This document shows, one piece after another, positions 3,796 through 32,976 of a stretch of DNA of 39,130 nt; position 1 is the first letter of the stretch; the number at the start of each line of letters is the position of its first letter. The position numbers were made by a program, and so were the translations under genes. This DNA comes from Acidobacteriota bacterium (GTDB lineage: Bacteria > Actinomycetota > Acidimicrobiia > Spongiisociales > UBA11373), in the NCBI GenBank assembly GCA_022571885.1, contig JACZWZ010000006.1, positions 1 through 39,130 of the forward strand. Reading direction: 5' to 3'. Under the pieces are notes generated by a model, which made no database searches, had not been told where the DNA came from, and saw only the letters and a program-made list of their open reading frames with translations.

Positions 3796-3975
3796 CCAGT
3801 CACCGGTCACCAGTCGCCAGCAACAAGGTGCCGCAGAACCCCAACTGGAGATCGAATCGGTATAAGCACTGATGTCGGGGCAGCGGCCTCGCAACGCTCG
3901 GTGGATTGCAGAGCTATCCGGCCCCGATCAGGCTTCCGCCGCGTTCTGACTGGAGACTGGAGACTGGAGACTGAG
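3796..3975. repeat. Inverted element with CC-N5 heptad arms (word CCAGTCN)
   Basis: Left arm 3796-3820 CCAGTCA CCGGTCA CCAGTCG CCAG; right arm 3946-3975 CTGACTGGAGACTGGAGACTGGAGACTGAG (reverse complement = CCAGTCT repeats). Confidence 0.85.
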
Positions 3976-3976
3976 A

Positions 3977-4498
3977 TCATTCCTCCTCCATCACTGCGAT
4001 GTATGGGAGGTTTCGATATTTTCCGACCAGATCGAGCCCATATCCGATGACGAACTCCGGAGGGATCTCGAAACCCGTATACCTGACGTCGATCGGAACC
4101 CGCTGCAGACCGGACTTCAGCAACAGCGTCGCTATCTCGAGCGATGCCGGCTCTCGAACCTCCAGATTGCGCCGTAGATAATCGAGCGTCAAACCGCTGT
4201 CGATTATGTCCTCCACGATCAGCACGTGGCGGCCTGCTATCTCCTGGTCTAGGTCCTTGAGGATCCGCACGACACCCGAAGTCTGGGTGGCGGCCCCGTA
4301 GGACGACACTGCCATGAAGTCGATCTCGACCGGTAGCGCGATATTGCGCGCCAGGTCGGCCATCACCATGAACGCGCCCTTGAGAACCGCCACCAGCAGC
4401 AGATCCTTGCCCTCGTAATCTGCGGTGATCTCGGCGCCCATCTCGACCAGACGCTGCTGAATCTCTTCTTCACTGACAAGCGTCCTGCCGATTTTCAA
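3977..4498 (-). CDS. hpt: Hypoxanthine phosphoribosyltransferase (TTG start overlapping tilS stop, TTGA)
   Basis: VLIVEDIIDSGLTLDYL PRPP motif, FVIGYGLDLVGKYRNLPYI C-terminus. Confidence 0.92.
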   Translation of the reverse strand: MKIGRTLVSEEEIQQRLVEMGAEITADYEGKDLLLVAVLKGAFMVMADLARNIALPVEIDFMAVSSYGAATQTSGVVRILKDLDQEIAGRHVLIVEDIIDSGLTLDYLRRNLEVREPASLEIATLLLKSGLQRVPIDVRYTGFEIPPEFVIGYGLDLVGKYRNLPYIAVMEEE

Positions 4499-5772
4499 TT
4501 GGTCCTCCTCGCCCGCACCGTGATCAGCGGAGGTTCGACTGCCGACGGAGCGGCTCTTACTCCTGCGAGCCAGGCAATTGTCCCATCTGCCTCGACCACC
4601 GGCCACCTCGGTCGAACCCGAAGCGGGACGCCGGCCTCCGCCAAGGCATCACCGACACGCTTGGAGCCTCCCGCGATGGCGATGCGCTCATTGGGCATCG
4701 CCGCCCTGACCACCAGGCGGCTCGGAAGAGGAATCGTCACACTGAACCGCCCGATGGACCGGGACCCGGCTTCGACGCTCAGTACCCAATCCCCGAATCC
4801 GACTTCACTACCCACCTCCACCTCTGATGCCGGCGGGATGGCGGGTTCGTCGGCGACGAGCACCACCCACGGTCCCTCACGGTGGATATCGACGGCACCC
4901 CCAATGGTGACCGCCGAGTCGTTCACCGCGTCCAGAACTGCTGCGATCTCGAATGCGGTCCCGGCGTACGGACCACGCACCTCCCGCAATGCCCGCCGCG
5001 CAACGCGAGCGGCTATCGCTGCCGGGAGGGTGGCGAGAACGGCGGCCGGGACCGCGACCGCCCCATCGCGATGGATCACCGGCACTCTGGCGGCCCGACT
5101 CTCGAGCACTTCGTCGTCTGCCGCCGCACTCGACGCCAGCCGACCCAACGCCTCCACCAATCGCGGGTTGAACCGATGTGCCAGCGCCGGGATGGTCTCG
5201 TGTCGGATGCGGTTTCTACGCACCCTCGCGTCGGAGTTCTGCGGATCGTCGACAAAGGGCAAGCCCAGCTCCTCGGCAAGGAATCGAGTATCCGAACGGG
5301 CCACATCCAGCAGCAGCCTCATGATCCGGCCCCGAGTCGGAGGGATACCGCTCAGACCGGCGGCACCGGTGCCTCGGAGCACGTTCCCGAGCACAGTCTC
5401 GGCCTGATCGTCGAGCGTGTGGCCGGTGAGGATGACCTCGTTCTTTGCCGCCGCAGCCTCCAGCGCCGCATAGCGGGTCTGGCGGAGGGCAGTCTCCGAG
5501 GATGAAGACGGGTGGGCCACAACGATCTCATGGCGTAATCCGATCATCGCCGCGATGGCCGTCGCCGCATCCATGAGCTCATCCGACCCGGGCAGACCGT
5601 GATCCACGCTGACTGCCCGAACCCGTTTCGTACTCTGCGAGACGGCCCAGGCAAGTACCGCGCTGTCCGCTCCCCCGCTCAACGCCACGATCACCGGAGC
5701 TTGGGGAAGTCGCTCTCGGACCCGCGCCAGCAAGGCAGCGGTATCCGCGCCTACCCCACGCGGGTCAGCCAC
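4495..5772 (-). CDS. tilS: tRNA(Ile)-lysidine synthase
   Basis: VIVALSGGADSAVLAWAV PP-loop, GHTLDDQAETVLGNVLRGTGAAGLSGI. Confidence 0.93.
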   Translation of the reverse strand: MADPRGVGADTAALLARVRERLPQAPVIVALSGGADSAVLAWAVSQSTKRVRAVSVDHGLPGSDELMDAATAIAAMIGLRHEIVVAHPSSSSETALRQTRYAALEAAAAKNEVILTGHTLDDQAETVLGNVLRGTGAAGLSGIPPTRGRIMRLLLDVARSDTRFLAEELGLPFVDDPQNSDARVRRNRIRHETIPALAHRFNPRLVEALGRLASSAAADDEVLESRAARVPVIHRDGAVAVPAAVLATLPAAIAARVARRALREVRGPYAGTAFEIAAVLDAVNDSAVTIGGAVDIHREGPWVVLVADEPAIPPASEVEVGSEVGFGDWVLSVEAGSRSIGRFSVTIPLPSRLVVRAAMPNERIAIAGGSKRVGDALAEAGVPLRVRPRWPVVEADGTIAWLAGVRAAPSAVEPPLITVRARRTN

Positions 5773-6779
5773 CGGTCAGGATCTCTGATCTCGTCGAGCG
5801 TCGGAAGGGCGTCGGGGCCACTCCAGGCGGCATCGAGGGCGCCAAATCCGGCCCGGCGTTCCACGGCGAGGATGAACCGCTCGCCCTGCTCATACTGCTT
5901 CATCTTCATCTCGAGGCCGGTGAGCCTCAGAAACGCCGTCATGCGCGGATCCTTGCGGCGCATCTTGAGCACACGGGCCATCCGGTCCTGAGTCACCAGC
6001 ACGCGTGCCCCGATTCGATCCATCACCACGTGGCCGTGACCTTCGAGCAGCGACATGAGCGCCTGGACCCGGTCGATGAGGTCACGCTGGCCGGGAGTAG
6101 CGAGGAAGCCCATCAGGCCGCGCTCGTCGATCAACGGACGACCCTCTCGTGCTGCGGAGCGCATCTCGTCTCGAATCCGCTGGATCCGCCCCGACTCGGG
6201 GACAGAGGTCTCGACCAGACCCTCAACCAGATCGAGGAAGTACTGCTTGAGCCATGGGACACCGGTGAATTGGAGTCGGTGGGTGCACTCATGAAGTGCG
6301 ACCCAAAACCGGAACTCGTCGGGACGGAATTCGTTCTTCCGTTCCATGTCGAGGACATTGACGCCGACGAACATCACCGTGTCCCCGTCCCCACCGTCCT
6401 CCGACGGAAGCACCAGTTCGTATTGGCCGAGTACCCGTTTCGCCAACACACCGACGAGCGCACCCACCTCGGCCCCCATCAGCCTCGACGTCATCCGCTG
6501 ACCGAAACCGGAACTCTTGAGCCGCGCCTCCGCCGGAGCCAGCAAGGTCCCAAAGCTCTTCAGATTCGTCTCTGCCCATTGGCGGCGGGTCACCACTGCG
6601 ACCTTGGGGTCACCCACCCAATCGAGGCCGGTCTCGGCAGACGCCAGCTCGGCGGCGCGGGCAACAAGGTCGGCGGCGCGATGTCCGAATTGCCGGAAGT
6701 GGTAGGTCGTCTCCAGGGGATGAGAGCCACTGAGCCGCCCGGCTACTCGGGCGGCAAGCGTCCAATCGACCCCACTCAC
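5751..6779 (-). CDS. DUF2342-type zinc-dependent metalloprotease / F420-associated family protein
   Basis: 342 aa with FWVALHECTHRLQFTGVPWL (HExxH); position next to tilS as in mycobacteria. Confidence 0.8.
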   Translation of the reverse strand: MSGVDWTLAARVAGRLSGSHPLETTYHFRQFGHRAADLVARAAELASAETGLDWVGDPKVAVVTRRQWAETNLKSFGTLLAPAEARLKSSGFGQRMTSRLMGAEVGALVGVLAKRVLGQYELVLPSEDGGDGDTVMFVGVNVLDMERKNEFRPDEFRFWVALHECTHRLQFTGVPWLKQYFLDLVEGLVETSVPESGRIQRIRDEMRSAAREGRPLIDERGLMGFLATPGQRDLIDRVQALMSLLEGHGHVVMDRIGARVLVTQDRMARVLKMRRKDPRMTAFLRLTGLEMKMKQYEQGERFILAVERRAGFGALDAAWSGPDALPTLDEIRDPDRWLTRVG

Positions 6780-7036
6780 GGTGACACGCGGTAGCGACCC
6801 CGAATCCGCACGGCGTACCCAAGAGCGATACCAAGGATGGCGATACCGGTGGCTCCGGCCAGGGCCGGGACCAAGAACCGGAAGGTCCAGGCATCTTCGT
6901 CGACCGTCGGCTGATCGTCTACGAGCACAACGGCCGGAGCGCTGTCACCGGTTAGCTCCTCCTGGGCGATCGCAGGGACAATGCCGAGTACGAAGAGCAC
7001 CAAAAAGGTCGCAACCAGAAACCGAAGGCGATACAT
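6776..7036 (-). CDS. Small secreted/membrane protein of unknown function
   Basis: 86 aa, N-terminal signal/TM helix plus C-terminal TM helix (FLVPALAGATGIAILGIALGYAV). Confidence 0.55.
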   Translation of the reverse strand: MYRLRFLVATFLVLFVLGIVPAIAQEELTGDSAPAVVLVDDQPTVDEDAWTFRFLVPALAGATGIAILGIALGYAVRIRGRYRVSP

Positions 7037-7080
7037 GAGCGTCAGGTTACCCGCCGGAATGCCAGCTTCGGATCGGAGAC

Positions 7081-7272
7081 CTAAGACTCCGGGGCGACCC
7101 GACCGCGTAGACGGGGAAAACGAGTGGGGGCGTGGGCGTAGCAGTGATCCCGCTTGTTGTAGCTGGAGAGGCGGGTGGTGCAGGACTTCTCAATGCACAC
7201 ACGAACGCCCTCATGCTTCTTGGGAGCACGAAGCTTCCCTTGGACCCGGTTGCCCTTCATGATTTCAGACAT
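7081..7272 (-). CDS. Small Cys/His-rich protein, putative metal binding
   Basis: [58 protein letters not shown]-x4-C-x12-C-x2-H spacing. Start chosen at the internal Met. Confidence 0.6.
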   Translation of the reverse strand: MSEIMKGNRVQGKLRAPKKHEGVRVCIEKSCTTRLSSYNKRDHCYAHAPTRFPRLRGRVAPES

Positions 7273-7540
7273 CTGAACCTCCTGCAGTCGGGTCGACCGA
7301 CGTATCGGTAGGGCCATTCTGACGTATGAACGTCGTTAAGCGAGCCATCAGTTCCTCGGGCATGTCGTCCACACAGTCCTCGCGAATCCTCTGCTGTAGC
7401 TTCGACTCGAATGAAAACCCATCTGTGCACGGCGGACAGCGCCGCAGATGGCGCTGAATCCGCCAGCTTCGATAGCGGCCGATCTCGCCATCGAGATAGT
7501 GGTAGACCTTCACCTGGGCCTTGTGACAGTCTGACTTCAT
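7265..7540 (-). CDS. RsrA-like zinc-dependent anti-sigma factor
   Basis: [20 protein letters not shown]...[13 protein letters not shown]-x3-C-x2-C ZAS motif; ATGA overlap with the upstream sigma gene. Confidence 0.85.
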
Positions 7541-8109
7541 GAGCCTGTTCCGATGCCTCGTTCTTCTGCCACCCGCCACAACGCACGCTGTAACTGCTTT
7601 CTTCCCCGATGAAGTCTGCTCATCACGGTGCCGATCGGGACATCCATGATCTCTGCGATCTCCTTGTAGGAGAACCCTTCTACATCGGCCAGTAGCACCG
7701 GCAGTCTGAAGTTCTCCGGGAGGGCCTCCACCGCCCCCTTGATGTCGGAATCGACGAACTGATCGAGGGCTTCCTCCTCCGCCGAACGTGAAGCTCCACC
7801 GGTACCGGTTTCACCCAGTCGCTTGAACAGATAGAGGTCCTCGAGTTCTCCGAGTTCGACTTCGGAGGGACGGCGAGCCTTCTGCCGGTACCTGTTGATG
7901 AACGTGTTGGTGAGAATTCGGTACAGCCACGCCTTGAGGTTGGTTCCGGCCTTGAAGGTGTGATATCCGCGAAATGCCTTGAGCAAGGCCTCTTGGAGCA
8001 CGTCTTGGGCATCCGCCGGATTGCGGGTCATCCGCAACGCAGCCGAATACAGCTGGGGGATGAACTCCCGGATGTCGGCTTCGAACGTGGCCTGATCAGC
8101 CACAGGCAC
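7537..8109 (-). CDS. ECF RNA polymerase sigma factor, SigR/SigH type (start uncertain)
   Basis: [42 protein letters not shown] and [28 protein letters not shown]. Confidence 0.92.
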
Positions 8110-8162
8110 CACCCCTGGTGTGTCAGATGGTCGACAAGGGTAGGGGGAAGTCGTTGGTCGTC

Positions 8163-8242
8163 GGTCACCTGTCACCAGTCGCCAGTCGCCACTCACCAGT
8201 CAGACGATCCCACGATCTGGCTGGCGACTGGAGGCTCGACCG
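8163..8242. repeat. Inverted element with CC-N5 heptad arms (word CCAGTCN)
   Basis: GGTCACCTGTCACCAGTCGCCAGTCGCCACTCACCAGTCAG ... CTGGCTGGCGACTGGAGGCTCGACCGC. Confidence 0.8.
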
Positions 8243-8340
8243 CCCCGGAGACAAAATGAGGTTAGGCGCGTGATGACACCTCTCACAGAGCGACGTCTGA
8301 AGCTGGAGACTCCTTGCCGGGGACTACGATTCCGGCCGTC

Positions 8341-8415
8341 GCCGGGGTAGCTCAGGGGTAGAGCAGCTCACTCGTAATGAGCAGGTCTGGGGTTCGAATC
8401 CCCACCTCGGCTCCA
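8341..8415 (+). tRNA. tRNA-Thr (anticodon CGT), CCA encoded
   Basis: GCCGGGG acceptor / CCTCGGC; anticodon arm GCTCA-CTCGTAA-TGAGC; T arm TGGGG-TTCGAAT-CCCCA; followed by TCCA. Confidence 0.95.
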
Positions 8416-8612
8416 ATCACCTGAGGCATCTGGGCGATTGAGCATCTTCTGTGACCCAGACATGACACACGAGGCTCTGCATGAACGGCTCGATGCACAA
8501 GATCGGCGTCGAGAAGGGTAGGGGTCTTGGCTGGTACATGGATCAACCCGCCGTGATTTCATCCAGCCAGAATGCGGGAGGATTCTGCACTTGCCCACAC
8601 CAATTACAGATC

Positions 8613-8668
8613 GGAGTCTGCAGGTCTGGAGTCTGGAAGTTTCCCAGCTCCTGACTCCTGCCTACAGG
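8613..8668. repeat. Inverted element with heptad arms (words GGAGTCT / CCTGACT)
   Basis: GGAGTCTGCAGGTCTGGAGTCTGGAAG TTTC CCAGCTCCTGACTCCTGCCTACAGG. Confidence 0.65.
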
Positions 8669-8970
8669 CCCGACGCCCGCGAGTCGCCCTGAGGGTAGAC
8701 GACCTTGGATTCGGGATCGTTGAAGGCGACCGATGGCTCCGCCAGACGTAATTCCATAAAGGTGCAACCCGGGTAGGCCGGGTCCTCATACAGCTCGGCG
8801 ATGACGTCGTCGGGCAGCAGTTCGGCGATGCGCAGCATCTCGGCACGATCGGCGGGGTGAGTCCCGACGAACTTGACCTCGCCCTCGACATCGACGCGCT
8901 CCACCAGGCCGGCGGCCACCTCGCGGCGCCACGACCTCCTCGAACGCCCCTCCCGGAACATTGGCGGCAT
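8662..8970 (-). CDS. Hypothetical protein
   Basis: 102 aa ORF (MPPMFREGRSRRSWRREVAAGLVERVDVEGEVKFVG...); no family recognised. Confidence 0.45.
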   Translation of the reverse strand: MPPMFREGRSRRSWRREVAAGLVERVDVEGEVKFVGTHPADRAEMLRIAELLPDDVIAELYEDPAYPGCTFMELRLAEPSVAFNDPESKVVYPQGDSRASGL

Positions 8971-9042
8971 GGGTCACCTCAGAAGATACGGCAATCGAAT
9001 CGTATGACGCGATACCGCAGATGTTGGGGATTGTCCCACGAA

Positions 9043-9109
9043 GTCACCAGTCACCAGTCACCAGTCACCAATCTTGCTCGATCTTGCTGGAGACTGGAGA
9101 CTCGACCGC
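9043..9109. repeat. Inverted element with CC-N5 heptad arms (CCAGTCA x4)
   Basis: GTCACCAGTCACCAGTCACCAGTCACCAATC ... TGCTGGAGACTGGAGACTCGACCGC. Confidence 0.85.
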
Positions 9110-9193
9110 ACGCAACCAATGGCGCGATAGGCGCGTCCGCTTACATCCGGCGCGACGGTGCCTGGAATTGGAGACTTCCTGACGGCTCTGTCG

Positions 9194-10348
9194 TCAGGAT
9201 CTCGGTACTTCGTTCCAGGGAAGCTCTTTGTCGACCCGGGGTTCACCGGGAAGCCCGAGCACCCGCTCACCGAGGATCGACTTCATGATCTCAGAGGTGC
9301 CGCCCTCGATGGAGTTGCCGCGGGATCGGAGAAAGCCCTTCCGTGGATCCGTTATCTCCCGAAACGTATCGGGTCGGGTCATCTCGTAACTGTCGTAGAG
9401 CATCCCTTCGGCGCCCATGAGTTCGACCGCGAATTCGAAGATCTCCTTGTTGATCTCGGCATACGCCAGCTTTGCGGTAGATCCCTCAGGCCCCGGGGTC
9501 CCCACCTTGCGATTGTCCCGGGCCCGGGCATTGGTGAGGCGCGCCGCTTCGGCGTCGACCCACAGGCGCATCAGACGATCCCGCTGAGCATCGTCGCCGC
9601 CGCGCTCCTTCCACACTTGCACTGCGATCCCGATCGGACCGGCGCCACGCGGCGGGACGGCCCCACCAATTGCCACCCGTTCGTTCATGAGCGTGGTCAA
9701 GGAGACCCGCCATCCGTCTCCCACCTCCCCAATGAGGTTCTCGTGGGGAATGCTGGCGTCGGTGAAGTAGACCTCGTTGAACTCGGCCTCGCCGGTGATC
9801 TGGCGAAGTGGACGAACCTCGACACCCTCACCGTGCATATCGACGATGAAGTACGACATCCCCTGGTGCTTCGGGACATCGGGATCAGACCTCACCACGA
9901 GCATGCCCCACTTGGAGACGTGGGCGAGCGTGGTCCACGCCTTCTGTCCGTTGATGATCCACTCGTCACCATCGCGAACCGCCTTGCATGCAAGCGCAGC
10001 CATGTCGGACCCGGCGCCGGGCTCGGAGAACATCTGACACCAGATCTCCTCGGTGCTGAACATCGGGCGAAGCCAGCGCCGCTGTTGCTCCTCGGTACCG
10101 TGAGCCAGCAGCACGTGGGACCCCATTCCGACACCGAGCGGATTGTGCTGGGCCGGATTGGGAGCACCTGCCTCCTGCATCCGATCTTCGACAATTCCCT
10201 GGAGACCTCGAGACAGCTCCAGGCCTCCCAATCCCTTCGGATACCAGACCCAGGCGAGGCCGGCATCGAAACGGGCACCCAGAAATTCGACGACGTCACC
10301 CTTGGGATCGTGATCCGCCAGCAGACGGTCGATTGCCTCCTCCACCAC
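9194..10348 (-). CDS. Acyl-CoA dehydrogenase (start may be slightly upstream)
   Basis: WCQMFSEPGAGSDMAALACKAVRDGDEWIINGQKAWTT and SIEGGTSEIMKSILGERVLGLP. Confidence 0.93.
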   Translation of the reverse strand: MVEEAIDRLLADHDPKGDVVEFLGARFDAGLAWVWYPKGLGGLELSRGLQGIVEDRMQEAGAPNPAQHNPLGVGMGSHVLLAHGTEEQQRRWLRPMFSTEEIWCQMFSEPGAGSDMAALACKAVRDGDEWIINGQKAWTTLAHVSKWGMLVVRSDPDVPKHQGMSYFIVDMHGEGVEVRPLRQITGEAEFNEVYFTDASIPHENLIGEVGDGWRVSLTTLMNERVAIGGAVPPRGAGPIGIAVQVWKERGGDDAQRDRLMRLWVDAEAARLTNARARDNRKVGTPGPEGSTAKLAYAEINKEIFEFAVELMGAEGMLYDSYEMTRPDTFREITDPRKGFLRSRGNSIEGGTSEIMKSILGERVLGLPGEPRVDKELPWNEVPRS

Positions 10349-10505
10349 GGCGCGGCCCTCGGTGGGGCTGGAGTGATCGGTGATCGGAACTTCCTCCTAC
10401 TGGGCCAGCAGCGATTGTGCCACACCAAATCGCACCCGGGCTCGGTCTCTGCCTGGATCCACCGGTCTGGCCGGTGGATGTGAAGGTGGGCCACCGAGGG
10501 CAACA

Positions 10506-10614
10506 CTTCCCGTGCCACGTCTCCCGCTTCCCGAACGTTGTTTCCGTAGCTGCTGTGGCGCTTGAAGCTACCGGGACTCGCTTCGGGGAACGGACCGCGG
10601 ACAACGGACGGCGG
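10506..10614. repeat. Intergenic element with CC-N5 / N5-GG heptads
   Basis: Left CTTCCCGTGCCACGTCTCCCGCTTCCCGAACGTTGTTTCCG; right GGACCGC GGACAAC GGACGGC GG (10592-10614). Confidence 0.65.
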
Positions 10615-10648
10615 TGTCGACCGATCCACCACCTGTCGGCGCGGACTC

Positions 10649-11566
10649 TCACTTGCCGAACGCCGCCCGCAGCCCGTCGTCGATGTCGGGGTGCTCGAAT
10701 TCAAAGCCGGATTCGAGCAACACACCCGGAGTGACCCGCTGGCCCTCCAGGACCAGGGCATCGGCCAGTTCCGAGCCGAGCAGGAGCCGCAGAGCAAAAC
10801 CTGGCAGCGGTAGAACAGCGGGGCGGTGCAACACCCGCCCCAACGCCCTGGTGAAGTCGCGGTTGGTCACCGGGTTGGGCGCCACCAGGTTGACCGGTCC
10901 TGCCACCTCGGTGTCGAGCAGGTGGAGGATGGCGCGTACCTCGTCGCCGAGCGATATCCACGACCACCACTGCCCACCACCGCCGACGGGACCGCCCAAC
11001 CCCCAACGGAAAGGGCTGATCCAGCGCGGTCCGAATGGTGCCAGAAGCCGACCGAGGGCTCCCCCGGCCATGCTCAGCACGATCCCGGAACGGAGCTGAA
11101 CCACCCTGATGCCGGCCTGAATCGCAGGGTCGGTGGCAGCCTCCCAGGCAACGCATAGGTCGGCGAGGAAGCCCGATCCCGAAGTCGACGCCTCGTTGAG
11201 AATCGATTCGGCACCATCGCCGTAATAGCCGACCGCAGAGGCATTGACCACCACGGCGGGAAGATGCTCCAGTGCGGCGATGGTGTCGGCCAACAACCGG
11301 GTGGGGTAGATCCGGCTATCCCACAGCAGTTGCTTCTCCGCCTCGGTCCATCGCTTCTCCCCGATCCTGCGACCGGCGAGGTTGACCACGGCATCGAAAC
11401 CCTCGACTGCCTTCGCCTCGATGGTGCCTGCCGCAGGGTCCCACGCAACCCCATCGCCGTGCGACTGGGGGCGCAGCAGCCGAACCACCTCATCGCCGCG
11501 GCCGGCCAAGGCCTCTACCAGCGCCTCGCCGATCACGCCGCTCGAACCCGCTACCAGCACCCTCAT
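10649..11566 (-). CDS. TIGR01777-type NAD-dependent epimerase/dehydratase
   Basis: MRVLVAGSSGVIGEALVEALAGRGDEVVRLLRP, NLAGRRIGEKRWTEAEKQLLWDSRI, ASAVGYYGDGAESILNE. Confidence 0.9.
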   Translation of the reverse strand: MRVLVAGSSGVIGEALVEALAGRGDEVVRLLRPQSHGDGVAWDPAAGTIEAKAVEGFDAVVNLAGRRIGEKRWTEAEKQLLWDSRIYPTRLLADTIAALEHLPAVVVNASAVGYYGDGAESILNEASTSGSGFLADLCVAWEAATDPAIQAGIRVVQLRSGIVLSMAGGALGRLLAPFGPRWISPFRWGLGGPVGGGGQWWSWISLGDEVRAILHLLDTEVAGPVNLVAPNPVTNRDFTRALGRVLHRPAVLPLPGFALRLLLGSELADALVLEGQRVTPGVLLESGFEFEHPDIDDGLRAAFGK

Positions 11567-11595
11567 GGCAGGCCAGAGTAGAGACTGCCCGCCTA

Positions 11596-11732
11596 CTCAG
11601 TACCCAGTAGCCAGTACCAGGCCTGGTTGCGAGCGAGGCGATCGACGTACCTACCGCGATCGGGTCTTCTTGCCGGGCGAGTTCCCAGTAGCCAAGGCCT
11701 GTCTGACTGGCTACTGGTTACTGGCTACTGAG
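11596..11732. repeat. Inverted element with CC-N5 heptad arms (word CCAGTAN) around a GATCGACGTACC core
   Basis: CTCAGTACCCAGTAGCCAGTACCAGG ... GATCGACGTACC (11640-11651) ... GACTGGCTACTGGTTACTGGCTACTGAG. Confidence 0.85.
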
Positions 11733-11766
11733 ACGCGGTGTCCCGCTGTGAACGATGTCGGGTGTG

Positions 11767-15461: not shown

Positions 15462-15542
15462 GACAGCGAGGCTATCACCGGAGCCAGACCTGATTGCGAT
15501 TGGGGTGATCGACGTCTCGGCGGTGTGCCGCCACACGCGCCC

Positions 15543-15886
15543 GTCGAGTCATCCGTTCCAGCGTGGCCGTGTAGCGGTGTAGTCGACGTACCCACCGTTG
15601 CCTCGTTCACGTGCCGTCGAGTTTCCCGTACCAGGCGTGGCCGGGCAACAGAGTGATCGACGTACCCACCGAGATCGCGATCAGGTGCGAGCGAGTTTTC
15701 CGTCCCAGGCGTGACCGCCTTGCGGAGCGATCGACGTACCACCGTGCGCTCGTCCCGGTGCGGGCGAGTTTCCCGTACCAAGCGTGGCCGGGCAACGGAG
15801 TGATCGACGTACCCAACGTGGTCTCGTCCAGGTGCCATCGAGTTTCCCGTTTCTCGCATGACGCGTCGATTCGGGAAACGGGAAAC
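15543..15886. repeat. Degenerate 73-74 bp tandem repeat array ending in a strong hairpin
   Basis: CGAG-anchored units begin at 15545, 15618, 15692, 15765 and 15839 (spacing 73, 74, 73, 74). Consensus CGAGTTTCCCGTACCAGGCGTGGCCGGGCAACAGAGTGATCGACGTACCCACCG...CAGGTGC. Terminal IR 15842-15856 / 15872-15886. Confidence 0.9.
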
Positions 15887-15921
15887 GACCTCCTGCGGTG
15901 CAGCGCCGGAGCCGGCCCGAG

Positions 15922-21208: not shown

Positions 21209-21410
21209 CGTTTCCCATTCCAGACCGAGCCTGCGACAACAGCCCTTGACGAATGAAGCGGCGGCCCGTAGGAGCCCTGGTCGAGTTTCCCGCTTCCCGA
21301 ACAGAAGTGAGGACGGCACTCGGGATACGGGGAACCCGACGGGTGTCCGCCGCGGCTCGGAGAAGCCCGTCGAGCCTCCGAGAGCCAGACCCGGTCTGGA
21401 ACGGGAAACG
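21209..21410. repeat. Nested inverted repeat element
   Basis: Outer arms 21209-21226 CGTTTCCCATTCCAGACC / 21393-21410 GGTCTGGAACGGGAAACG (17/18). Inner arms 21285-21300 / 21320-21335 (13/16). Confidence 0.9.
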
Positions 21411-23151: not shown

Positions 23152-23163
23152 GGCGGGAGTGCT

Positions 23164-23363
23164 CGTTTCCCGTTCCGGACCGGGCATCGTACCGATGTGA
23201 TCGACGCGTTGACCGGGACCGCACCATCGCTCCGTCGAGTTATCCGTTGTCCGAGTATTTGCCCGGCTCTTGCAGAAAACGGACAACTCGACCAGAACTC
23301 AAACGGGAGGCGGCTGGATACGTCGATCACTGCTGGCGCAGACTCGGGTTTGGGACGGAAAAC
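23164..23363. repeat. Nested inverted element between convergent genes
   Basis: Outer head-to-head units CGTTTCCCGTTCC...TGATCGACG (23164-23206) and reverse complement of GTTTTCCGTCCCA...GTGATCGACGTATCC (23316-23363). Inner IR TCGAGTTATCCGTTGTC (23235-23251) / GAAAACGGACAACTCGA (23275-23291), 15/17. Confidence 0.85.
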
Positions 23364-23391
23364 ATCCCCACAAGAGAGTCGCTCTAGTGCT

Positions 23392-25446: not shown

Positions 25447-25481
25447 GAGTACACCTCAGGTCGAATCGAAGAACGGCCGGG

Positions 25482-25487
25482 AGTATA
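25482..25487 (-). promoter_or_regulatory. Candidate -10 box (TATACT) of hppA
   Basis: Minus strand TATACT; the corresponding -35 position falls within the GTTAGGC heptad arm. Confidence 0.45.
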
Positions 25488-25497
25488 GGAAGCCGGA

Positions 25498-25566
25498 GTT
25501 AGGCGTTAGGCGTTAGGCGTTAGGAAGAATCTGCTCTGCCTAATCCCTAATGCCTAGTACCTAATA
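25498..25566. repeat. Inverted element with heptad arms (GTTAGGC x4 / CCTAATN x4)
   Basis: GTTAGGCGTTAGGCGTTAGGCGTTAGG - 13 nt - GCCTAATCCCTAATGCCTAGTACCTAATA. Confidence 0.9.
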
Positions 25567-25573
25567 TTTGCCC

Positions 25574-26743
25574 TCAGATCAACCTCCCTGCGTGCTCATG
25601 CAGCGGATTCCCGTCGATGACCCGCTGCGGGCCGAGTCGTGACAGGTCGAGGACAGGATCGCGCTCCAGAATCAGCTCCGCCAGATAGCGACCCACGGCG
25701 TGGCATTGCTGAAACCCATGCCCTGAGAACCCGGTGCACACATAGAGCCCGCCGATCTCAGGCCACTCCCCGATGATGGCGTTGCCGTCGAGTGTGTTGA
25801 CCGCGTAGAGCCCGGCCCAAGACCCGGCAATGTCGAGTTGGTCGAAGGCGGGAAAGTGTTCGATGAGTTCCGGCCAGATCCGGTCGAAGAACTTGCTGCG
25901 CCGAACCGTGAAATCGAACCCGATGAGGTCATCGGGAAGCGACCAGGCGACGAGGAACTTCCCGTCCCCCTCGGGGAGCACGTACAACCCCGACGGCAGG
26001 AACACGCTCGGAAGATCACCCTCCCACTCCAGGTGGCTGTCGACGATGAACACATTCCGCATGAAGGGCAGCACCGGGAGGTCGACACCGATGCCGGCCA
26101 GCAGCGGTGGACTCCAGGCACCGGCGCAGTTGACGACGACGGGCGCCCTGAACTCCTCTCCGGAGACCAGACACACACCAACCATGCGGTCACCGTCACA
26201 AATCAACTCGGCAACCTCACCCTCCACGAAATCGGCGCCCATCTCGACGGCGCGCTGCCGATAGCCGCGGAGCACCGCGTTCGGATCGACCGAGCCATCG
26301 CCAGGTCCGAAGGTCCCGCCGATGTAATGAGGTCCGGCGAAAATGGGCCACCGGGCTGCGATCTCGGGTTCATCGATCCAACCGACATCGCAACCCAATG
26401 CCTGCTGCGCCTCCATCCCTGCCAGGGCGTCGGCCCGGTGCTCGAGATCGGCCAGGAACAGATTGCCCTGATGCCGGGCACCGGGCTCGGGCCGATACCC
26501 GCCGACCTCCATATCGTCGGCAAAGGTCGCCAGCACGTCGAATGCATACTGGGAGATCCGGATATTCTCTTCGAGGTTGAACTGGATACGGACGTTGCCG
26601 TCCGAGAGAACCGTCGAGGATCGGGCATAGGTCGAATCACGCTCGACGACCGCCACCGAAACCGCCGGATCCATCGACTTCAGGTAGTAGGCGACGGCGC
26701 TGCCCATCACCGCACCACCCACGATCAGCACGTCACGGTTCAT
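25574..26743 (-). CDS. FAD-dependent oxidoreductase (DAO family)
   Basis: DVLIVGGAVMGSAVAYYL dinucleotide fold; GLYVCTGFSGHGFQQCHAVGRYLAELI C-terminus. Confidence 0.9.
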   Translation of the reverse strand: MNRDVLIVGGAVMGSAVAYYLKSMDPAVSVAVVERDSTYARSSTVLSDGNVRIQFNLEENIRISQYAFDVLATFADDMEVGGYRPEPGARHQGNLFLADLEHRADALAGMEAQQALGCDVGWIDEPEIAARWPIFAGPHYIGGTFGPGDGSVDPNAVLRGYRQRAVEMGADFVEGEVAELICDGDRMVGVCLVSGEEFRAPVVVNCAGAWSPPLLAGIGVDLPVLPFMRNVFIVDSHLEWEGDLPSVFLPSGLYVLPEGDGKFLVAWSLPDDLIGFDFTVRRSKFFDRIWPELIEHFPAFDQLDIAGSWAGLYAVNTLDGNAIIGEWPEIGGLYVCTGFSGHGFQQCHAVGRYLAELILERDPVLDLSRLGPQRVIDGNPLHEHAGRLI

Positions 26744-26859
26744 GTGGCAGGGATTCTCGCGGCAAGTCCTGAGTTCGGGGCCAGGAGTCGGAAGTTCCAG
26801 GCTGAGCCTGGGTGAGCACGGGGGCCACGCGCCTAACCACCGTGTGTAAGGAGGCCCAG

Positions 26860-26945
26860 TCGAGTTGTCCGTATTCCGTCAGCTGGCGACACTACGTCCT
26901 GAGTGTTCGAGCACCGTCGCACCGAGAACGGACAACGGACTACGG
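26860..26945. repeat. Inverted element with CC-N5 heptad arms (words CCGTTGT/CCGTATT)
   Basis: TCGAGTTGTCCGTATTCCGTC ... CGGACAACGGACTACGG, ending about 4 nt before the trkH stop. Confidence 0.75.
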
Positions 26946-26949
26946 GTTC

Positions 26950-28404
26950 TCACCGCCTCCACAACTCGCGCGTGAAGAGCAGCAGCACCGGAAACAACTC
27001 GAGGCGACCGATGATCATGATCACCGACAGCAGCCACTTACCGGCTGCGGGCACCACCGCGTAGTTCTCCGCCGGACCGACCGCTGACAGACCGGGACCG
27101 ATGTTTCCCAGCGCTGAAGCGACGGCCGAGGCCGATGTGACCAGGTCGAGATTGGTGCCGGCGATCGACTCGAAGACGGAGAAGGCCAACGTGCCCGTCA
27201 TGAACACGAACATGTACAGAAGGAAGAACGACTGGACGCTTTCGGCAATGGCATCGGGAACGGGCTGCTTCCCGAAACTCGTCACGAAGACTCCGCGCGG
27301 ATGAATGAGCCTTCGCAAGTCGGCTTTCGATCCCTGATAGAGCACCCCCAGCCGATATACCTTTACCGAGCCGGCGGTAGAACCGGCCATGCCTCCGACA
27401 AACATCAAGCCCACCACCAGGATTTGGAGCGATGACGCCCACTGACCAAAGTCGACTGTGGCGTACCCGGTGGTGGTGACGAGTGAAACGCTGGTGAACA
27501 CCCCGTTCCTAACGGTGTCGGCGATGTTCCCGCCCCAGGTGCCGATGATGATGAAGGCCGTCGCCGCCGCCAGGATTCCCGCGTAGAGCCGGAATTCGGC
27601 ATGCCTCAGATAGGTCAGTGGATCGCGAAGTCGAAGTGCGTTGAAGTGGAGTGCGAATGAGACTCCGGCGAGCACCATGAACACGATCACGATCCATTGC
27701 GCAGAGTTGTCGAAGGCGGCCATCGAGGCCGCCTTGGTGCCGAATCCGCCGGTCGACATTGTTGTAAACGCGTGGATGATCGAATCGAACACACCCATGT
27801 CGGTAAAGGAGAGCAGGGTCGCCTCGGCGACCGTGAACGCGAAATACACGAACCAGAGGCGCTTTGCCGTCTCACGAAAACGCGGGGTGAGCCGGTCCGG
27901 CAACCCTCCCGGAGACTCGGCGCGCGCCAACTGCACGCCTCCGGTACCCAACAGCGGCAAGATGGCGATCGAGAGCACGATGATCCCCATCCCGCCCATC
28001 CACTGGGTCAAGGCGCGCCACCACAGCACCCCGTGTCCCAAGGCCGCAAGATCGGGAAGAATGGAAGATCCGGTCGTGGTGATCCCGGCCGCGGTTTCGA
28101 AGAAAGCATCGGTCAGCCCGCTGACCGAACCGGTCACCAGGTACGGCAGAGTCCCGACGAATGCCATTGCGAACCAGGCCAGAGCCACCGCAGCAAATCC
28201 TTCGCGGGTAGTCATCTCCGCCGCCGGCGTGAACAAACGCCGAGCCACATCGGCCACGACAACAACCACTAGGGCCGAGATGGCAATGCCACGAGCGTCG
28301 GACCACTCGCCGTAGATCCCGGCGACGACGGCGGAACTCGCCATTGCGACTCCGGTCGCCTCGATGACCGCTGCGATTATGAAGCCGAGCCGCCGGAAGG
28401 ACAT
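26950..28404 (-). CDS. trkH: TrkH-family potassium uptake protein
   Basis: 484 aa, TTTGSSILPDL, TMSTGGFGTKAASMAAF, TTTGYATVDFGQW, MFVGGMAGSTAGSVKVYRL selectivity-filter repeats. Confidence 0.93.
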   Translation of the reverse strand: MSFRRLGFIIAAVIEATGVAMASSAVVAGIYGEWSDARGIAISALVVVVVADVARRLFTPAAEMTTREGFAAVALAWFAMAFVGTLPYLVTGSVSGLTDAFFETAAGITTTGSSILPDLAALGHGVLWWRALTQWMGGMGIIVLSIAILPLLGTGGVQLARAESPGGLPDRLTPRFRETAKRLWFVYFAFTVAEATLLSFTDMGVFDSIIHAFTTMSTGGFGTKAASMAAFDNSAQWIVIVFMVLAGVSFALHFNALRLRDPLTYLRHAEFRLYAGILAAATAFIIIGTWGGNIADTVRNGVFTSVSLVTTTGYATVDFGQWASSLQILVVGLMFVGGMAGSTAGSVKVYRLGVLYQGSKADLRRLIHPRGVFVTSFGKQPVPDAIAESVQSFFLLYMFVFMTGTLAFSVFESIAGTNLDLVTSASAVASALGNIGPGLSAVGPAENYAVVPAAGKWLLSVIMIIGRLELFPVLLLFTRELWRR

Positions 28405-28409
28405 GGGCT

Positions 28410-28574
28410 AGGAGCCTGCTGAGTGACTCTGTTGCTGAGGTCGGCGGCCAGACGCGCCAGTCGCAAGGACCTCGGCTTCGACACTCCTCCTGTAGGAATG
28501 GCGGAGCCGAGGGCATAGCGAATGGTGATGGATGGTCGTCGAGATGAGTGACATTTGTTGCTCAGCGGGCTCCT
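28410..28574. repeat. Long member of the GCTGAGCAA intergenic repeat family
   Basis: AGGAGCCTGCTGAGTGAC ... GTGACATTTGTTGCTCAGCGGGCTCCT inverted termini. Confidence 0.75.
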
Positions 28575-29901
28575 ATGCGAACAGCTTCTCGACGGAGGGG
28601 ATGGCCTCAGGAAGAGCGATGGCGATGAGTCGGTCGCCCGCTTGAATCTCAGTGGTGCCGTGCGGAATGAAGGCCTGATCGCCCCGCACGATGCCTCCCA
28701 CGATGGCCGACTTGGGGAGACCGATGTCGCGCAGAGTCCGACCGATGGCCTCCGACTCTTCGCCTACCTCGAATTCGATCGCCTCGGCGGTCGTGTCCTG
28801 GAAGGTGGCGACACTGTAGATGTGGCCGCGCCGAATGTGACGCAGGATCTCGTTGGCCGCCGCCAGACGCGTAGAAACTCCGGCATCTATCCCGTTTCCT
28901 GCGAGCAGGGAGGCGTATTCGATGCGACTGAACCTGGCAACAGTGGTCTCAGCACCAAGCGCCTTGGCAACGAGACAACCGAGGAGATTCACCTCGTCCC
29001 AGCCGGTAGCTCCAATCACGATGTCAGCAGTATCGATTCCTTCGCTCTTGAGCACATTGATGTCTGTGGGGTCGCCCTTGACTATCACCAGACGGTCGTA
29101 CTTGGCCGACAACTCGTCGCACCCGTCTGCCTCGATATCGACCAGCACGGTCGAGATGCCGGCGCGCACTAGGTTCTCGGCAGTGAGGATGGCGAGCCGG
29201 GTGGAACCGAGGATGAACACCTTCTTTGCCTTGTGCTCATCGACCCCCATCAGTTGCAGAGCTTCATGGGCAGCATTGCCGTTGGCCATGATCAGGACGT
29301 GGTCGCCGACCTCGATCTTGCTGTCGCCGCGGGCGATGAATGTGTCGCCGTTCCTGACGACGGCGCCAACGATCCACTCCCATCCGGTGACTCGCCCCCG
29401 CAACTCGCGCAGTGTGATGCCGTCGAGGAGAGACCCGGCGTGCACATAACCACCGAATAGGTTGATCTTCCCACCGGCGAATTCCACCACCTCAGATGCC
29501 CCGCCACGGAGGACCAGAAGCAGCAATTCTTTGGCTAGAGATTCGACGGGATCAATCACGACATTCACCCCATGAGCCTCGAGATCCTCTCGCAGCGTCG
29601 GGTCCTGGACCCGAGCGACCCGCTTTGGCACACCTAGTCGCTCGGCTACCTGGCTGGCCAGGATGTTGACCGCGTCCGAAGATGTCACGGCGATCATGAG
29701 TTGGGCGTCGGCAACGCGTGCATCCTCCAACGCCTTGATCGATGCCCCATTGGCAGTGATCACCAGACAGTCGACCGATTCTTGAAGCTCCCGCGCGCGT
29801 TGCGGGTCAGCCTCGATCACGACGACATCTTGGCCCTCGTACGCCAGCCGTTCGGCAAGGTACGAACCGACGGCACCGGCACCGACAATCACGATTCTCA
29901 T
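28573..29901 (-). CDS. trkA: Trk system potassium uptake protein TrkA
   Basis: MRIVIVGAGAVGSYLAERLAYEGQDVVVIEAD; second RCK domain KVFILGSTRLAILTAENLVRAG; TrkA-C domains. Confidence 0.95.
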   Translation of the reverse strand: MRIVIVGAGAVGSYLAERLAYEGQDVVVIEADPQRARELQESVDCLVITANGASIKALEDARVADAQLMIAVTSSDAVNILASQVAERLGVPKRVARVQDPTLREDLEAHGVNVVIDPVESLAKELLLLVLRGGASEVVEFAGGKINLFGGYVHAGSLLDGITLRELRGRVTGWEWIVGAVVRNGDTFIARGDSKIEVGDHVLIMANGNAAHEALQLMGVDEHKAKKVFILGSTRLAILTAENLVRAGISTVLVDIEADGCDELSAKYDRLVIVKGDPTDINVLKSEGIDTADIVIGATGWDEVNLLGCLVAKALGAETTVARFSRIEYASLLAGNGIDAGVSTRLAAANEILRHIRRGHIYSVATFQDTTAEAIEFEVGEESEAIGRTLRDIGLPKSAIVGGIVRGDQAFIPHGTTEIQAGDRLIAIALPEAIPSVEKLFA

Positions 29902-30020
29902 GACATCCCCAAGAGTGGATTGAACCGCGTCAGGTTAGAACGGCTCAAGGCGACTCCCAACCCACGGACCGGTCACACGCCGTCCTCGGGCGACGCCACG
30001 CACCGCTAGCCTCCGCCGAC

Positions 30021-31394
30021 ATGGCCGAAGTCGACAGCGAATACAGCCGCCAGCACCTGACCTGGGTGGATTCGCCGCGTTGGATTCCCTCTCGCTTCGT
30101 GCGACCGCTGACCCGATTCATCTACATCGAGTCGTCAGGCGGAATCGTTCTCCTGGTGGCAGCAATGATCGCCCTGCTGTGGGCCAATGCACCCTTTGGC
30201 GAGTCCTACGAGCGATTTTGGGAAACCCACTTCGAATTCTCGCTCGGCGGCATTCACCTCAGCGAAAGCCTGCGCGGAATCGTCAACGACGGCCTGATGG
30301 CGATCTTCTTCTTCGTGGTCGGACTCGAGATCAAGCGCGAGCTGGTAACCGGAGATCTGCGTGAACGCAAGGCAGCGTCCCTTCCTGTGATTGCCGCGCT
30401 GGGCGGAATGATCGTTCCCGCTCTCATCTACGTCTCGTTCAACGGCGCCGGAGAGGCATCCCAGGGCTGGGGAATTCCGATGGCCACCGACATCGCATTC
30501 TCCGTCGGGGTGGTCTCGCTCCTCGGTCGGCGAGTCCCGGTGGGTGCCAGGTTGTTCTTGTTGGCTGTGGCCATCGTGGATGACATCGGCGCCATCGCCG
30601 TGATCGCAGTCTTCTACACCGACACTGTCCTATTCGGCTACCTGGGGGCCGCCATCGGCGGTCTGGTCGCAGTCACGCTGGCAAACCGGGTAGGCGTCAG
30701 ATCGATGAGCTTCTATGTGCCGGTGGGGGTGGCGACCTGGTATTTCCTTCTCGAGAGTGGGGTGCACGCCACACTCGCCGGAGTAGCGCTCGGCATGTTG
30801 ACACCGGTGAGGTCGATGTACACCGATAGTGAGTACCACGATCGAGCCACCCGGATACTCGACAGATACGAGTTCGATATTGCCGCCCCCAGAGGGACCG
30901 AACGAATCGACCAGGATGCACTCGAGGTGTCGAACATCGCCCGCGAATCAGTCTCTCCGCTCCACCGAATGGAGAGCGTTCTTCACCCCTGGTCGTCGTT
31001 CGTGATCGTCCCGATCTTTGCTCTGGCCAACGCCGGAGTGCGCTTTACGGGTGTAGACGTGGTTGAGGCGGTGACCCACCCGGTGTCGCTTGGAGTGTTG
31101 TTCGGGCTCTTCGCAGGCAAGATCGTCGGGATCTCGATCTTCGCGTGGCTCGCCGTCAAGCTTCGACTCGGGGTGTTGCCTCGCTTTACCGGGTGGAAAC
31201 ACATCGTCGGGCTGGCCGCCATCGCCGGTATCGGATTCACCGTGTCCCTGTTTATCACCGGACTCGCCTTCGACAGCGCGGTTCTCGCCGACAGAGCGAA
31301 GATCGGTATCTTTATAGGCTCATTCGCCTCCGGCGTGGTCGGGACCCTGATCCTCAGGTCGATCCGGCTGGACGGAGCAGCCACATCCGACTAG
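30021..31394 (+). CDS. nhaA: Na+/H+ antiporter NhaA
   Basis: GLMAIFFFVVGLEIKRELVTGDLRERKAASLPVIAALGGMIVPALIY; GIPMATDIAFSVGVVSLLG; AIVDDIGAIAVIAVFY. Confidence 0.96.
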   Translation: MAEVDSEYSRQHLTWVDSPRWIPSRFVRPLTRFIYIESSGGIVLLVAAMIALLWANAPFGESYERFWETHFEFSLGGIHLSESLRGIVNDGLMAIFFFVVGLEIKRELVTGDLRERKAASLPVIAALGGMIVPALIYVSFNGAGEASQGWGIPMATDIAFSVGVVSLLGRRVPVGARLFLLAVAIVDDIGAIAVIAVFYTDTVLFGYLGAAIGGLVAVTLANRVGVRSMSFYVPVGVATWYFLLESGVHATLAGVALGMLTPVRSMYTDSEYHDRATRILDRYEFDIAAPRGTERIDQDALEVSNIARESVSPLHRMESVLHPWSSFVIVPIFALANAGVRFTGVDVVEAVTHPVSLGVLFGLFAGKIVGISIFAWLAVKLRLGVLPRFTGWKHIVGLAAIAGIGFTVSLFITGLAFDSAVLADRAKIGIFIGSFASGVVGTLILRSIRLDGAATSD

Positions 31395-31400
31395 CACATC

Positions 31401-32807
31401 ATGAAAGACCCAACCATGGCTCGACGACTTAGAGCGTCCGTCAATAGGCGAATGCACCGGCGCTATTCCATGGCTCTTCGCCACACGGCTCATCGCGGTG
31501 GGGCCCGGGGACCCAACCCCAGGCCACCGGGTCGGCGCCCATCGGCGCGCCCTCTTACCGCCATCATCCTCGCCCTCACCCTGATCGCAGCGGCGTGCAG
31601 CGGCGAAGCAGCTCCGCCCACGACCGTTGCCACCACTACGACCACCACCTCGCCGCCGGCGACGACGACCACCACCACTCAACCGCCAACCACCACATCG
31701 TCCACCATCCCCTATCACGCGCTGGACGTGACAATCAGCGGAGACGATGAGGCCAGTGCTGCCGTAGCGGCCCTGTACAACTGGTTCGGAGACCGCACTG
31801 CAGTAGAACCCGAGGTTCCGCAAGGATTGCTGGATCATCTGGCGACCGTCCACGCCGACGCCGATGGCATGTTCTCCGGCGAGCTGTTCTCCCAAGAAAT
31901 CGAAGACATGGGAACGGCCGGCGTCGTCGTCGTCGATGACCAGGACATCATGCTGCTCGTAGATGACGGCGACGGTTGGCGAGTCGTCGGCGCTTGGTTC
32001 GCCCAGTACGACATCGATCCGTGGTTCGGCAACCCGATCCGGTACGTGTTTGTGATCGGCACCGATGCCCGTCCCGGCCAGGACCAGCAGCACTTCCGCG
32101 CCGACAGCCTCCACATCCTCACCAGCAATATCACCGAACGCACCGGCGGCGTGCTCGGATTTCCCCGAGATACCTATGTCGAAGCTTCCTACGGAGGCGA
32201 CAAGTTCACCAACGTGAATGCACTGGTGTGGACGCTTTCCGAGAACACGATCCCCGGCCAGGACGAGATGATCGACCTGGCATCCGACCTGAGCGGGCTT
32301 CCTCTAGAGGGTTATCTGATCACCGGGTTCCTCAACTTCCAACGTCTGGTCGATGCCTTTGGCGGGGTAGGAGTGAACGTCCCCTTCGGAATGGCTGAAC
32401 CCAAGTCGCAGGCCTATCTGTCGGCAGGCCTGCAAACGCTTTTCGGGGGCGACGCGCTCGCCTTCAGCCGCAACCGGACGATCCCGGGTGGCGATTTCAC
32501 CCGGCAACTCCACGGTGGCCTCGTGATCCTGGGCGCACTCCAGGGCGTGCGGGAGCGCGATATCACAATGCTCCCGGCGCTGCTGTCGATTCTCATGGAC
32601 TTCACCTGGACCGACCTCAGCCTCGAAGATCTGCTGACGGTCGCCGCCGGCGGCTTCTTGCTCGATCCGGACAAGGTCGGCAACGACGTGCTTCCCGGAG
32701 TCGTCGTAATCCGCAATGGAGCATCAATGGTCAACCTGAGCCCCGAGGCCGAAGACATGTTTCGGGACATGGACGACGGCGCATTGACTCAACGCCAGGG
32801 TGAGTAG
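31401..32807 (+). CDS. LytR-CpsA-Psr (LCP) family protein with lipobox-like signal and Thr-rich linker
   Basis: LTAIILALTLIAAACSGEAAPPTTVATTTTTTSPPATTTTTTQPPTTTSS; FRADSLHILTSNITERTGGVLGFPRDTYVEAS; LCP core. Confidence 0.85.
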   Translation: MKDPTMARRLRASVNRRMHRRYSMALRHTAHRGGARGPNPRPPGRRPSARPLTAIILALTLIAAACSGEAAPPTTVATTTTTTSPPATTTTTTQPPTTTSSTIPYHALDVTISGDDEASAAVAALYNWFGDRTAVEPEVPQGLLDHLATVHADADGMFSGELFSQEIEDMGTAGVVVVDDQDIMLLVDDGDGWRVVGAWFAQYDIDPWFGNPIRYVFVIGTDARPGQDQQHFRADSLHILTSNITERTGGVLGFPRDTYVEASYGGDKFTNVNALVWTLSENTIPGQDEMIDLASDLSGLPLEGYLITGFLNFQRLVDAFGGVGVNVPFGMAEPKSQAYLSAGLQTLFGGDALAFSRNRTIPGGDFTRQLHGGLVILGALQGVRERDITMLPALLSILMDFTWTDLSLEDLLTVAAGGFLLDPDKVGNDVLPGVVVIRNGASMVNLSPEAEDMFRDMDDGALTQRQGE

Positions 32808-32921
32808 ACGGGTCCGACCCGACTGCCACCGCCCGTGACCAGATTCCTCCGTGGTGCGGGGTCATGACGGCGTGGATGCTCATCGTCGGCGCCGACCTGA
32901 CGGGCCGGTAGCCGAACACCG

Positions 32922-32976
32922 GCAGATCACAGATCGGACTACTCCGCATCTGCCGTCTGCCATCTGCTATCTCTGG
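32922..32976. repeat. Inverted element with heptad arms (GCAGATN / RTCTGCC)
   Basis: GCAGATCACAGATCGGA ... GCATCTGCCGTCTGCCATCTGCTATCTCTGG, ending 5 nt before the helicase ATG. Confidence 0.75.

Follow-up and report, generated by a model that had tools for sequence, protein, structure and literature searches.

Heptamers have been recognised since 2007 as over-represented among bacterial simple sequence repeats (SSRs), an effect with no accepted cause (PMC4692102), and the heptameric intergenic repeats of Xanthomonas and Nostoc, for which polymerase slippage has been proposed, prefer gene ends and avoid divergent gaps (PMC4692102). A further heptamer, TAACTGA of the marine Beggiatoaceae, is known from 169 sets and is distributed patchily across phyla (PMC4679880). 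Here, we analysed a 39,130-nt stretch of DNA (contig JACZWZ010000006.1 of assembly GCA_022571885.1, our contig C67; hereafter the window), which belongs to a 2.79-Mb draft genome that is 92% complete. By topoisomerase I, its closest named relative is Actinobacteria bacterium RBG_16_68_21 (73% identity), which makes the host an uncultured actinobacterium. An earlier note on this DNA had named the short tandemly repeated repetitive (STRR) sequences of cyanobacteria as a precedent for its intergenic repeats, and these are indeed the right kind of system. The elements described below are built from arms of tandem 7-nt units (heptads, each with its consensus "word"); they constitute extra DNA relative to empty orthologous gaps, share common words and a conserved scaffold, and lie at the 3' ends of genes. 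We tentatively read them, at somewhat less than an even chance, as short, non-coding, lineage-specific hairpin elements that were inserted near gene ends, dispersed, and then homogenised within their arms by slippage.

All of the loci cited in the earlier note, which had reported at least eleven gaps with 7-nt-periodic arms, exist. Tandem Repeats Finder (TRF) and an autocorrelation period scan recovered arms at positions 3796, 3948, 8164, 8613, 9042, 9087, 11593, 11706, 15872, 25498, 25539, 26927 and 32947 of the window, and the words of the weaker loci at 10.59, 21.29 and 23.24 kb were confirmed by direct reading of the sequence. When the window was scanned for periods 4 to 15, period 7 gave 9 stretches and period 14 gave 5, with 0-2 for each of the rest. 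Genes were then called with a codon model trained on those window genes that have Pfam support, and repeats of every period were counted. Intergenic DNA within 830 kb of the window's genome held 168 period-7 stretches against 1.8 in shuffled sequence, so that the pattern is beyond chance by the shuffling check that the note had suggested. Periods 14 and 21, which are multiples of 7, gave 110 and 38 stretches, and most other periods 0-5. Part of the 830 kb was picked for containing the pattern, which biases the densities upward but affects the comparison between periods much less. Just 8 period-7 stretches were found in 709 kb of coding DNA, and tandem 7-nt units are thus concentrated between genes, as in heptameric intergenic SSRs and STRRs. 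The word CCAGTCN (CCAGTCNCCAGTCNCCAGTC) alone occurs at 106 places across the genome, compared with 0 for its reversed control. An assembly artefact is unlikely, as heptads are seen in several independent genomes; yet some arrays lie at contig ends (for example G000:C2:74, G000:C119:29, G039:C21:3 and G019:C31:5), and for this reason short-read assemblies probably break within heptad arrays and hence under-count them.

The 221 arms in the 830 kb reduce to 72 distinct consensus words. A constant CC, which had been taken as the rule of the system, turns out to be an effect of composition: CC or GG is present in 72% of distinct words and in 74% of random intergenic heptamers, so that the true rule is the period, not CC. 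Nor are words rewritten for each locus; the vocabulary is common to loci, with the CCAGTCN family accounting for 82 of the 221 arms, and is specific to the genome. The other families are CCAGTAN, CCCGTTT, CCCGAYN, CCTAAYN, TTAGTCN, CATCTGC and AATTGCT. Between words there are 134 single-substitution links, against 69 for random words of equal G+C (maximum 92 of 300), an excess expected if words drift from one another. A heptad G-quadruplex of the GGGNATC type has GGG in each of at least 4 units. Here, the dominant words CCAGTCN, CCAGTAN and CCTAAN have at most GG on the G strand and GGG tracts occur only in the CCCGTT and CCCGAT families, and a three-tier G-quadruplex is therefore ruled out as the common denominator, most words being without GGG.

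Arms commonly face each other with complementary words, as the earlier note had described: in 31 of 73 adjacent pairs the words match in inverted orientation, with no more than one mismatch in 7 positions, where 7.5 +/- 2.6 were expected (maximum 17 of 1000), and just 1 of the 73 shows a direct match. The description holds less well at 8.17, 10.6 and 32.96 kb, where the partner arm is weak or decayed. In the CCAGT family, all 24 opposite-facing pairs place the C-rich arm first (in 4 additional pairs both arms are G-rich), and arm ends recur, many arms starting with (G)AAGTC or GTCGAGTC and having CAG(T/C)CAGAA at the inner end. Of the window's hairpins, 6 of 7 fold better than shuffled sequence (z -2.3 to -6.4), and the seventh has a z of -0.95.

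The individual positions of the CCAGT heptad behave differently. Position 6 (C or A) agrees between arms more often than expected (0.78 vs 0.56, p=0.004), whereas the linker at position 7 agrees in only 0.18 of cases, compared with 0.35 in permuted pairs, even though it is more uniform than expected inside a single arm (0.68 vs 0.39). Since the linker is rarely complementary, CCAGT stems are 6-bp blocks separated by mismatches; and since it is uniform within an arm and discordant between arms, heptads are homogenised along an arm and not copied to the opposite one. This contradicts, for the CCAGT family, the proposal that arm-to-arm copying maintains the arms at present, and likewise continuing template switching between them. 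At one orthologous hairpin compared between two sister genomes (n=1) the arms differ independently, an outcome that the note itself had named as refuting its proposal.

Many arms lie beside a conserved 91-nt scaffold, which emerged from an all-against-all comparison and a profile search and has the consensus AGTCTCCAGTnCCAGACGTGGTCGnGC..GA.......GACGCGCCTnCC.......CG....CGTGCCGTCGAGTnnCCAGTnnCCAGC. In a subset of the elements, this scaffold is joined by a proximal heptad arm and, across a loop, by a distal arm of inverted heptads. With a sequence-only model we count at least 99 copies in the window's genome, a lower bound, as only the best first-pass candidates were scored. By the same model, neither the congener G001 nor G009 has any copy, and the same holds for most of 40 relatives; there are five weak matches in four other genomes, near noise. 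In 25 of 31 scaffold copies the word family is identical on the two flanks, compared with 8.4 expected, the words being CCAGTC, CCAGTA, CCCGTT or CCGTTGT. This much of the "rewriting" in the earlier note stands, in that one scaffold carries different words that are concordant on both flanks, although words are set per genome and not per locus. The GAG of GTCGAG is invariant in 37 copies, and the conserved blocks keep a tightly constrained spacing while the spacers are saturated; blocks that stay intact between saturated spacers speak for selection also acting to retain at least the scaffold. Scaffold cores do not cluster by word (p=0.17, with little power at 45% identity), so word-specific subfamilies were rejected. 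So was a coding origin, as no frame is clearly stop-free, conservation has no 3-periodicity and no Pfam match exceeds the cut-off. A structured RNA was likewise rejected, there being no covarying helix in the scaffold and 0 pairs predicted by RNAalifold; an Rfam search of the window returned a tRNA only.

The elements are placed with respect to the ends of genes. Of the arms, 27% are no more than 10 nt away from a stop codon, compared with 9.5% under random placement in the same gaps, and no comparable excess of arms within 10 nt was found at start codons. Occupancy by arms falls from 46% in convergent gaps to 31% in tandem and 18% in divergent ones; arms thus share with the STRR class the position near gene ends and the avoidance of divergent gaps (PMC4692102). 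When the upstream gene is on the same strand, 19 of 26 scaffold copies begin no more than 40 nt behind a stop codon, compared with 2 of 14 otherwise (p=0.0007). The scaffold often stands directly behind a terminator-like hairpin and reads with the gene: a hairpin of at least 5 bp immediately precedes 19 of 40 copies, whereas 18% of control 3' ends have one (p=5e-5). At the 3' end of the acyl-CoA dehydrogenase gene (acad), G001 has a hairpin of different sequence in the same place and no scaffold. At this gene, the hairpin is therefore the gene's own and the element an addition behind it.

Comparison with relatives shows that such sites are gained. Orthologous loci were compared over the window region in two relatives and over one 40-kb region in three sister genomes. 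G001, a member of the same genus, is collinear with the entire window, and G009, a member of the same family, with almost all of it. Element-bearing gaps are longer than those of G001 by 76-441 nt in 7 of 8 cases (p=0.008); the ftsH/hpt gap measures 293 nt here and 137 nt in G001, four others measure 385 vs -56, 206 vs 87, 240 vs 143 and 223 vs 147 nt, and the remaining two are given in Table 1. Element-free gaps hardly differ between genomes (757/758/781, 93/96 and 119/119/131 nt). The insertions are thus absent at the orthologous sites of a relative, as for miniature inverted-repeat transposable elements (MITEs); no target-site duplication or terminal inverted repeat was seen by eye at the compared sites, where the flanks are highly diverged. 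There is 1 period-7 stretch in 137 kb of G001, and there are 93 in 280 kb of G009, the latter sample being partly chosen for matches. In the orf102/acad gap, next to the acad stop codon, CCAGTCT arrays are present in two genera, at 9039-9107 of the window and in L231 of G009, and G001 is without them; either the two genera inherited the site from a common ancestor, or arrays were gained more than once at a site that is preferred.

Different words are used even by the sister genomes G019, G032 and G039, which are collinear along a 40-kb region with 85-90% DNA identity. One gap that they share is free of heptads in G019, carries degenerate TGTAGTN units in G032, and in G039 holds TGTAGTC opposite AACTAGC; in a second, G039 has gained about 8 TAGTTGC units that start at a stop codon. 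Counting overlapping places inside one array separately, AACTAGC occurs at 144 places in G039, 7 in G032 and 0 in both G019 and G026, CCACTGA at 99 in G019, 18 in G032, 3 in G039 and 0 in G026, and CCTAAYN at 52 in the window's genome and 0 in six other genomes. CCAGTCN is present in 14 of 40 relatives from the order and in 4 of 297 genomes of a phylum sample. Within the order, G000, G004, G009, G012, G020, G027 and G039 are rich in heptads, and G001 is nearly devoid of them. These counts show that the dominant words differ between close relatives while the period stays, and the different words of sister species suggest that something spreads and replaces words genome-wide quickly.

Several processes could account for this, and the readings are not mutually exclusive. 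If the elements were inserted and dispersed, as we tentatively favour, copies would have been moved by a mobile or recombinational process. Arrays would then grow, shrink and turn uniform through 7-nt replication slippage, a mutated heptad replacing its neighbours, as the homogeneity within arms suggests. Such slippage could make words drift stepwise until each genome has its own vocabulary, and the purging of insertions from promoters and coding DNA may have produced the 3'-end bias. A number of observations weigh against this account. We found no transposase partner, and no sign of target-site duplication or clean excision. The two usual movers of small hairpins are lacking: neither a Y1 transposase (PF01797; this 92%-complete draft and 40 related genomes, controls positive) nor a reverse transcriptase (PF00078; this draft and the heptad-rich relatives) was detected, and with these genes absent, both RAYT/REP movers and elements dependent on reverse transcriptase (retrons, diversity-generating retroelements and group II introns) were rejected. 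The element-bearing hppase/dao gap is shorter here (127 nt) than in G001 (166 nt), so replacement also occurs. Scaffold copies share only about 45% identity and are saturated outside the conserved blocks, a pattern unusual for copies dispersed recently and closer to that of sites under selection, and heptad loci of the CCTAA, TTAGTC and AATTGCT families are without known scaffold.

The lack of both enzymes would suit a purely mutational origin, to which we give a minority but appreciable chance, in which 7-nt slippage in place and template switching between inverted copies (quasipalindrome correction) built the arrays with no mobile element, survivors being left where they are least harmful. 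Template switching is able to create and maintain hairpins (PMC8794818), and homogeneous words inside arms and the avoidance of coding DNA and divergent gaps fit as well. However, this would leave unexplained why many unlinked loci carry one genome-specific word, and likewise the scaffold with its many copies; the above-random disagreement of linkers between arms is the opposite of arm copying, and the congener G001 is almost free of such stretches. The main alternative is a functional 3'-untranslated region or terminator module, in which scaffold and hairpin would be selected for termination, mRNA stabilisation or protein binding, and words would drift under selection for pairing. The conserved blocks with their fixed spacing and saturated spacers, the position directly behind same-strand stop codons and hairpins, the convergent-gap bias and the folding of the hairpins all point this way, but the scaffold is devoid of covarying helices and missing from the same genes in G001, 6-bp blocks with mismatched linkers are not optimised stems, and elements also occur in divergent gaps; on balance we consider it unlikely. 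A dedicated trans-acting enzyme that writes heptads from a template, telomerase-like, with one word per genome, would agree with vocabularies that differ between sister genomes at such close identity and with the patchy distribution of CCAGTCN. It is nevertheless highly improbable, as no heptad-rich genome has an RVT_1 reverse transcriptase, many words coexist in the window's genome, and words drift by single steps, unlike the product of one fixed template. Finally, it is doubtful, though conceivable, that the elements represent a previously undescribed replicating system, with a 7-nt vocabulary per genome, present as hairpins behind gene ends at tens to hundreds of loci, wholesale replacement between close species, and a trans-acting mover without Y1 transposase or reverse transcriptase that recognises terminator hairpins.

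Table 1 Heptad arms, hairpins and scaffolds in the window (., strand unassigned; gap lengths here vs G001)
Feature	Position	Strand	Basis and remarks
Heptad C-arm CCAGTCN, ftsH/hpt gap	3791..3821	+	TRF, period scan
Facing heptad arm (CCAGTCT)n, ending at hpt stop codon	3944..3976	-	TRF, period scan
Heptad arm CCAGTCN and variants	8156..8202	+	TRF, period scan
91-nt scaffold and proximal heptad arm, opposite 8156-8202	8219..8311	-	Profile/sequence model
Heptad hairpin GGAGTCTGCAGGTCTGGAGTCTGG / CCCAGCTCCTGACTCCTGCC	8613..8663	.	Direct reading, TRF
Distal heptad arm (CCAGTCA)n	9039..9075	+	TRF, period scan
Scaffold with proximal arm (CCAGTCT)n	9085..9176	-	E=7.3e-17
Terminator-like hairpin TCCTGACGACAGAGCCGTCAGGA, at acyl-CoA dehydrogenase stop codon, directly before scaffold	9177..9199	-	Compared with G001
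Heptad arm of CCGTTGT/CCGCCGT type, acad/epimerase gap	10588..10615	-	Direct reading; gap 300 vs 90 nt
Heptad arm CCAGTAN	11593..11619	+	Period scan
Scaffold, CCAGTA words on both flanks	11606..11696	+	Gap 200 vs -4 nt
Facing distal arm CCAGTAN	11704..11732	-	TRF, period scan
Five tandem scaffold units, period about 74 nt, words TTTCCCGT	15476..15858	+	TRF, sequence model
CCCGTTT hairpin terminating the five-unit scaffold array	15836..15892	+	Period scan; fold z=-3.5
GTCGAG-TTTCCCGCTTCCCG heptads and scaffold (scaffold on minus strand, 21321-21409)	21280..21409	.	Direct reading, sequence model
Two facing scaffolds (+, 23165-23251; -, 23272-23363) around CCGTTGT hairpin 23235-23300	23165..23364	.	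Folding, sequence model
CCTAAC/CCTAAT hairpin, G-arm first, 8-nt gap	25493..25566	.	TRF; fold z=-6.4
Arms GTCGAGTTGTCCGTATTCCG ... AACGGACAACGGACTACGG	26868..26948	.	Period scan, direct reading; fold z=-0.95
Heptad arm CATCTGC/CGTCTGC, 8 nt upstream of MrfA-like helicase gene start	32946..32973	+	TRF

Other dispersed elements are present in these genomes. The trkH/trkA gap of the window holds an insertion of about 160 bp (28411-28571) that is absent in G001 and G009, where the gap measures 7 and 6 nt; it has 13-bp inverted ends (GGAGCCTGCTGAG / CTCAGCGGGCTCC), is flanked by TA, and appears to be a MITE with no relation to the heptads. Nor are heptads the basis of a second palindromic family, ACTCTCCCCTTTGGGGGGAGTCAGCGAGCAAAGCGAGCTGGTGGGGGG, which is dispersed over several loci (L036 2053-2584, L090 15302-15850, L047 14288-14850 and others); the linked group of intergenic segments has 93 members. 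A further apparent MITE family, with the ends GAGGGTACTGAAA / TTTCAGCACCCTC, is seen in the topA region of G019 (L235/L236, sites D and H), its insertions occupying different gaps in sister genomes.

When compared with described systems, the heptad elements resemble MITEs in being short non-coding insertions with inverted arms that are absent at orthologous sites, but no target-site duplication or defined terminal inverted repeat was seen in them and they contain internal tandem 7-nt arrays. They resemble REP/REPIN sequences with RAYT transposases in being short intergenic palindromic repeats at many loci, but their arms are tandem heptads and no Y1_Tnp gene was found in this or 40 related genomes. 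The TAACTGA repeats of marine Beggiatoaceae (PMC4679880) are likewise intergenic heptamers with no known mover and a patchy taxonomy; those, however, use one word in direct orientation (one indirect repeat is reported) upstream of start codons, whereas the elements here lie behind stop codons. The P6b stem of the Nostoc tRNA-Leu(UAA) intron (Class I TDNGATT, Class II NNTGAGT; PMC4476775) is also a stem of heptad motifs that is replaced whole while pairing is kept, although at one intron locus that is not behind a gene end, compared with hundreds of intergenic loci here. We found no description in the open-licence literature of the multi-word hairpin form, the scaffold or the genome-specific vocabularies; the heptameric class to which the elements belong is already known. 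The heptamer effect is extreme here, and as collinear sister species use different words at many loci, the question of its origin becomes directly testable, with the scaffold and its position behind terminator-like hairpins offering a concrete handle on what places the elements. Close systems, too, are the STRRs and heptameric SSRs themselves (Calothrix; Nostoc GGGGA(C/T)T; Xanthomonas GGGAATC; PMC4692102), which are similarly tandem, intergenic, genome-wide and near gene ends, avoid divergent gaps and are mentioned as having inverted copies; read on the opposite strand, the Xanthomonas word is the CCCGATT found here. Unlike them, the present genome uses dozens of words, most without GGG and so with no three-tier G-quadruplex, arranges them as facing hairpin arms with a fixed polarity in the CCAGT family, and joins a subset of them to a multi-copy scaffold, in vocabularies that differ between sister genomes.

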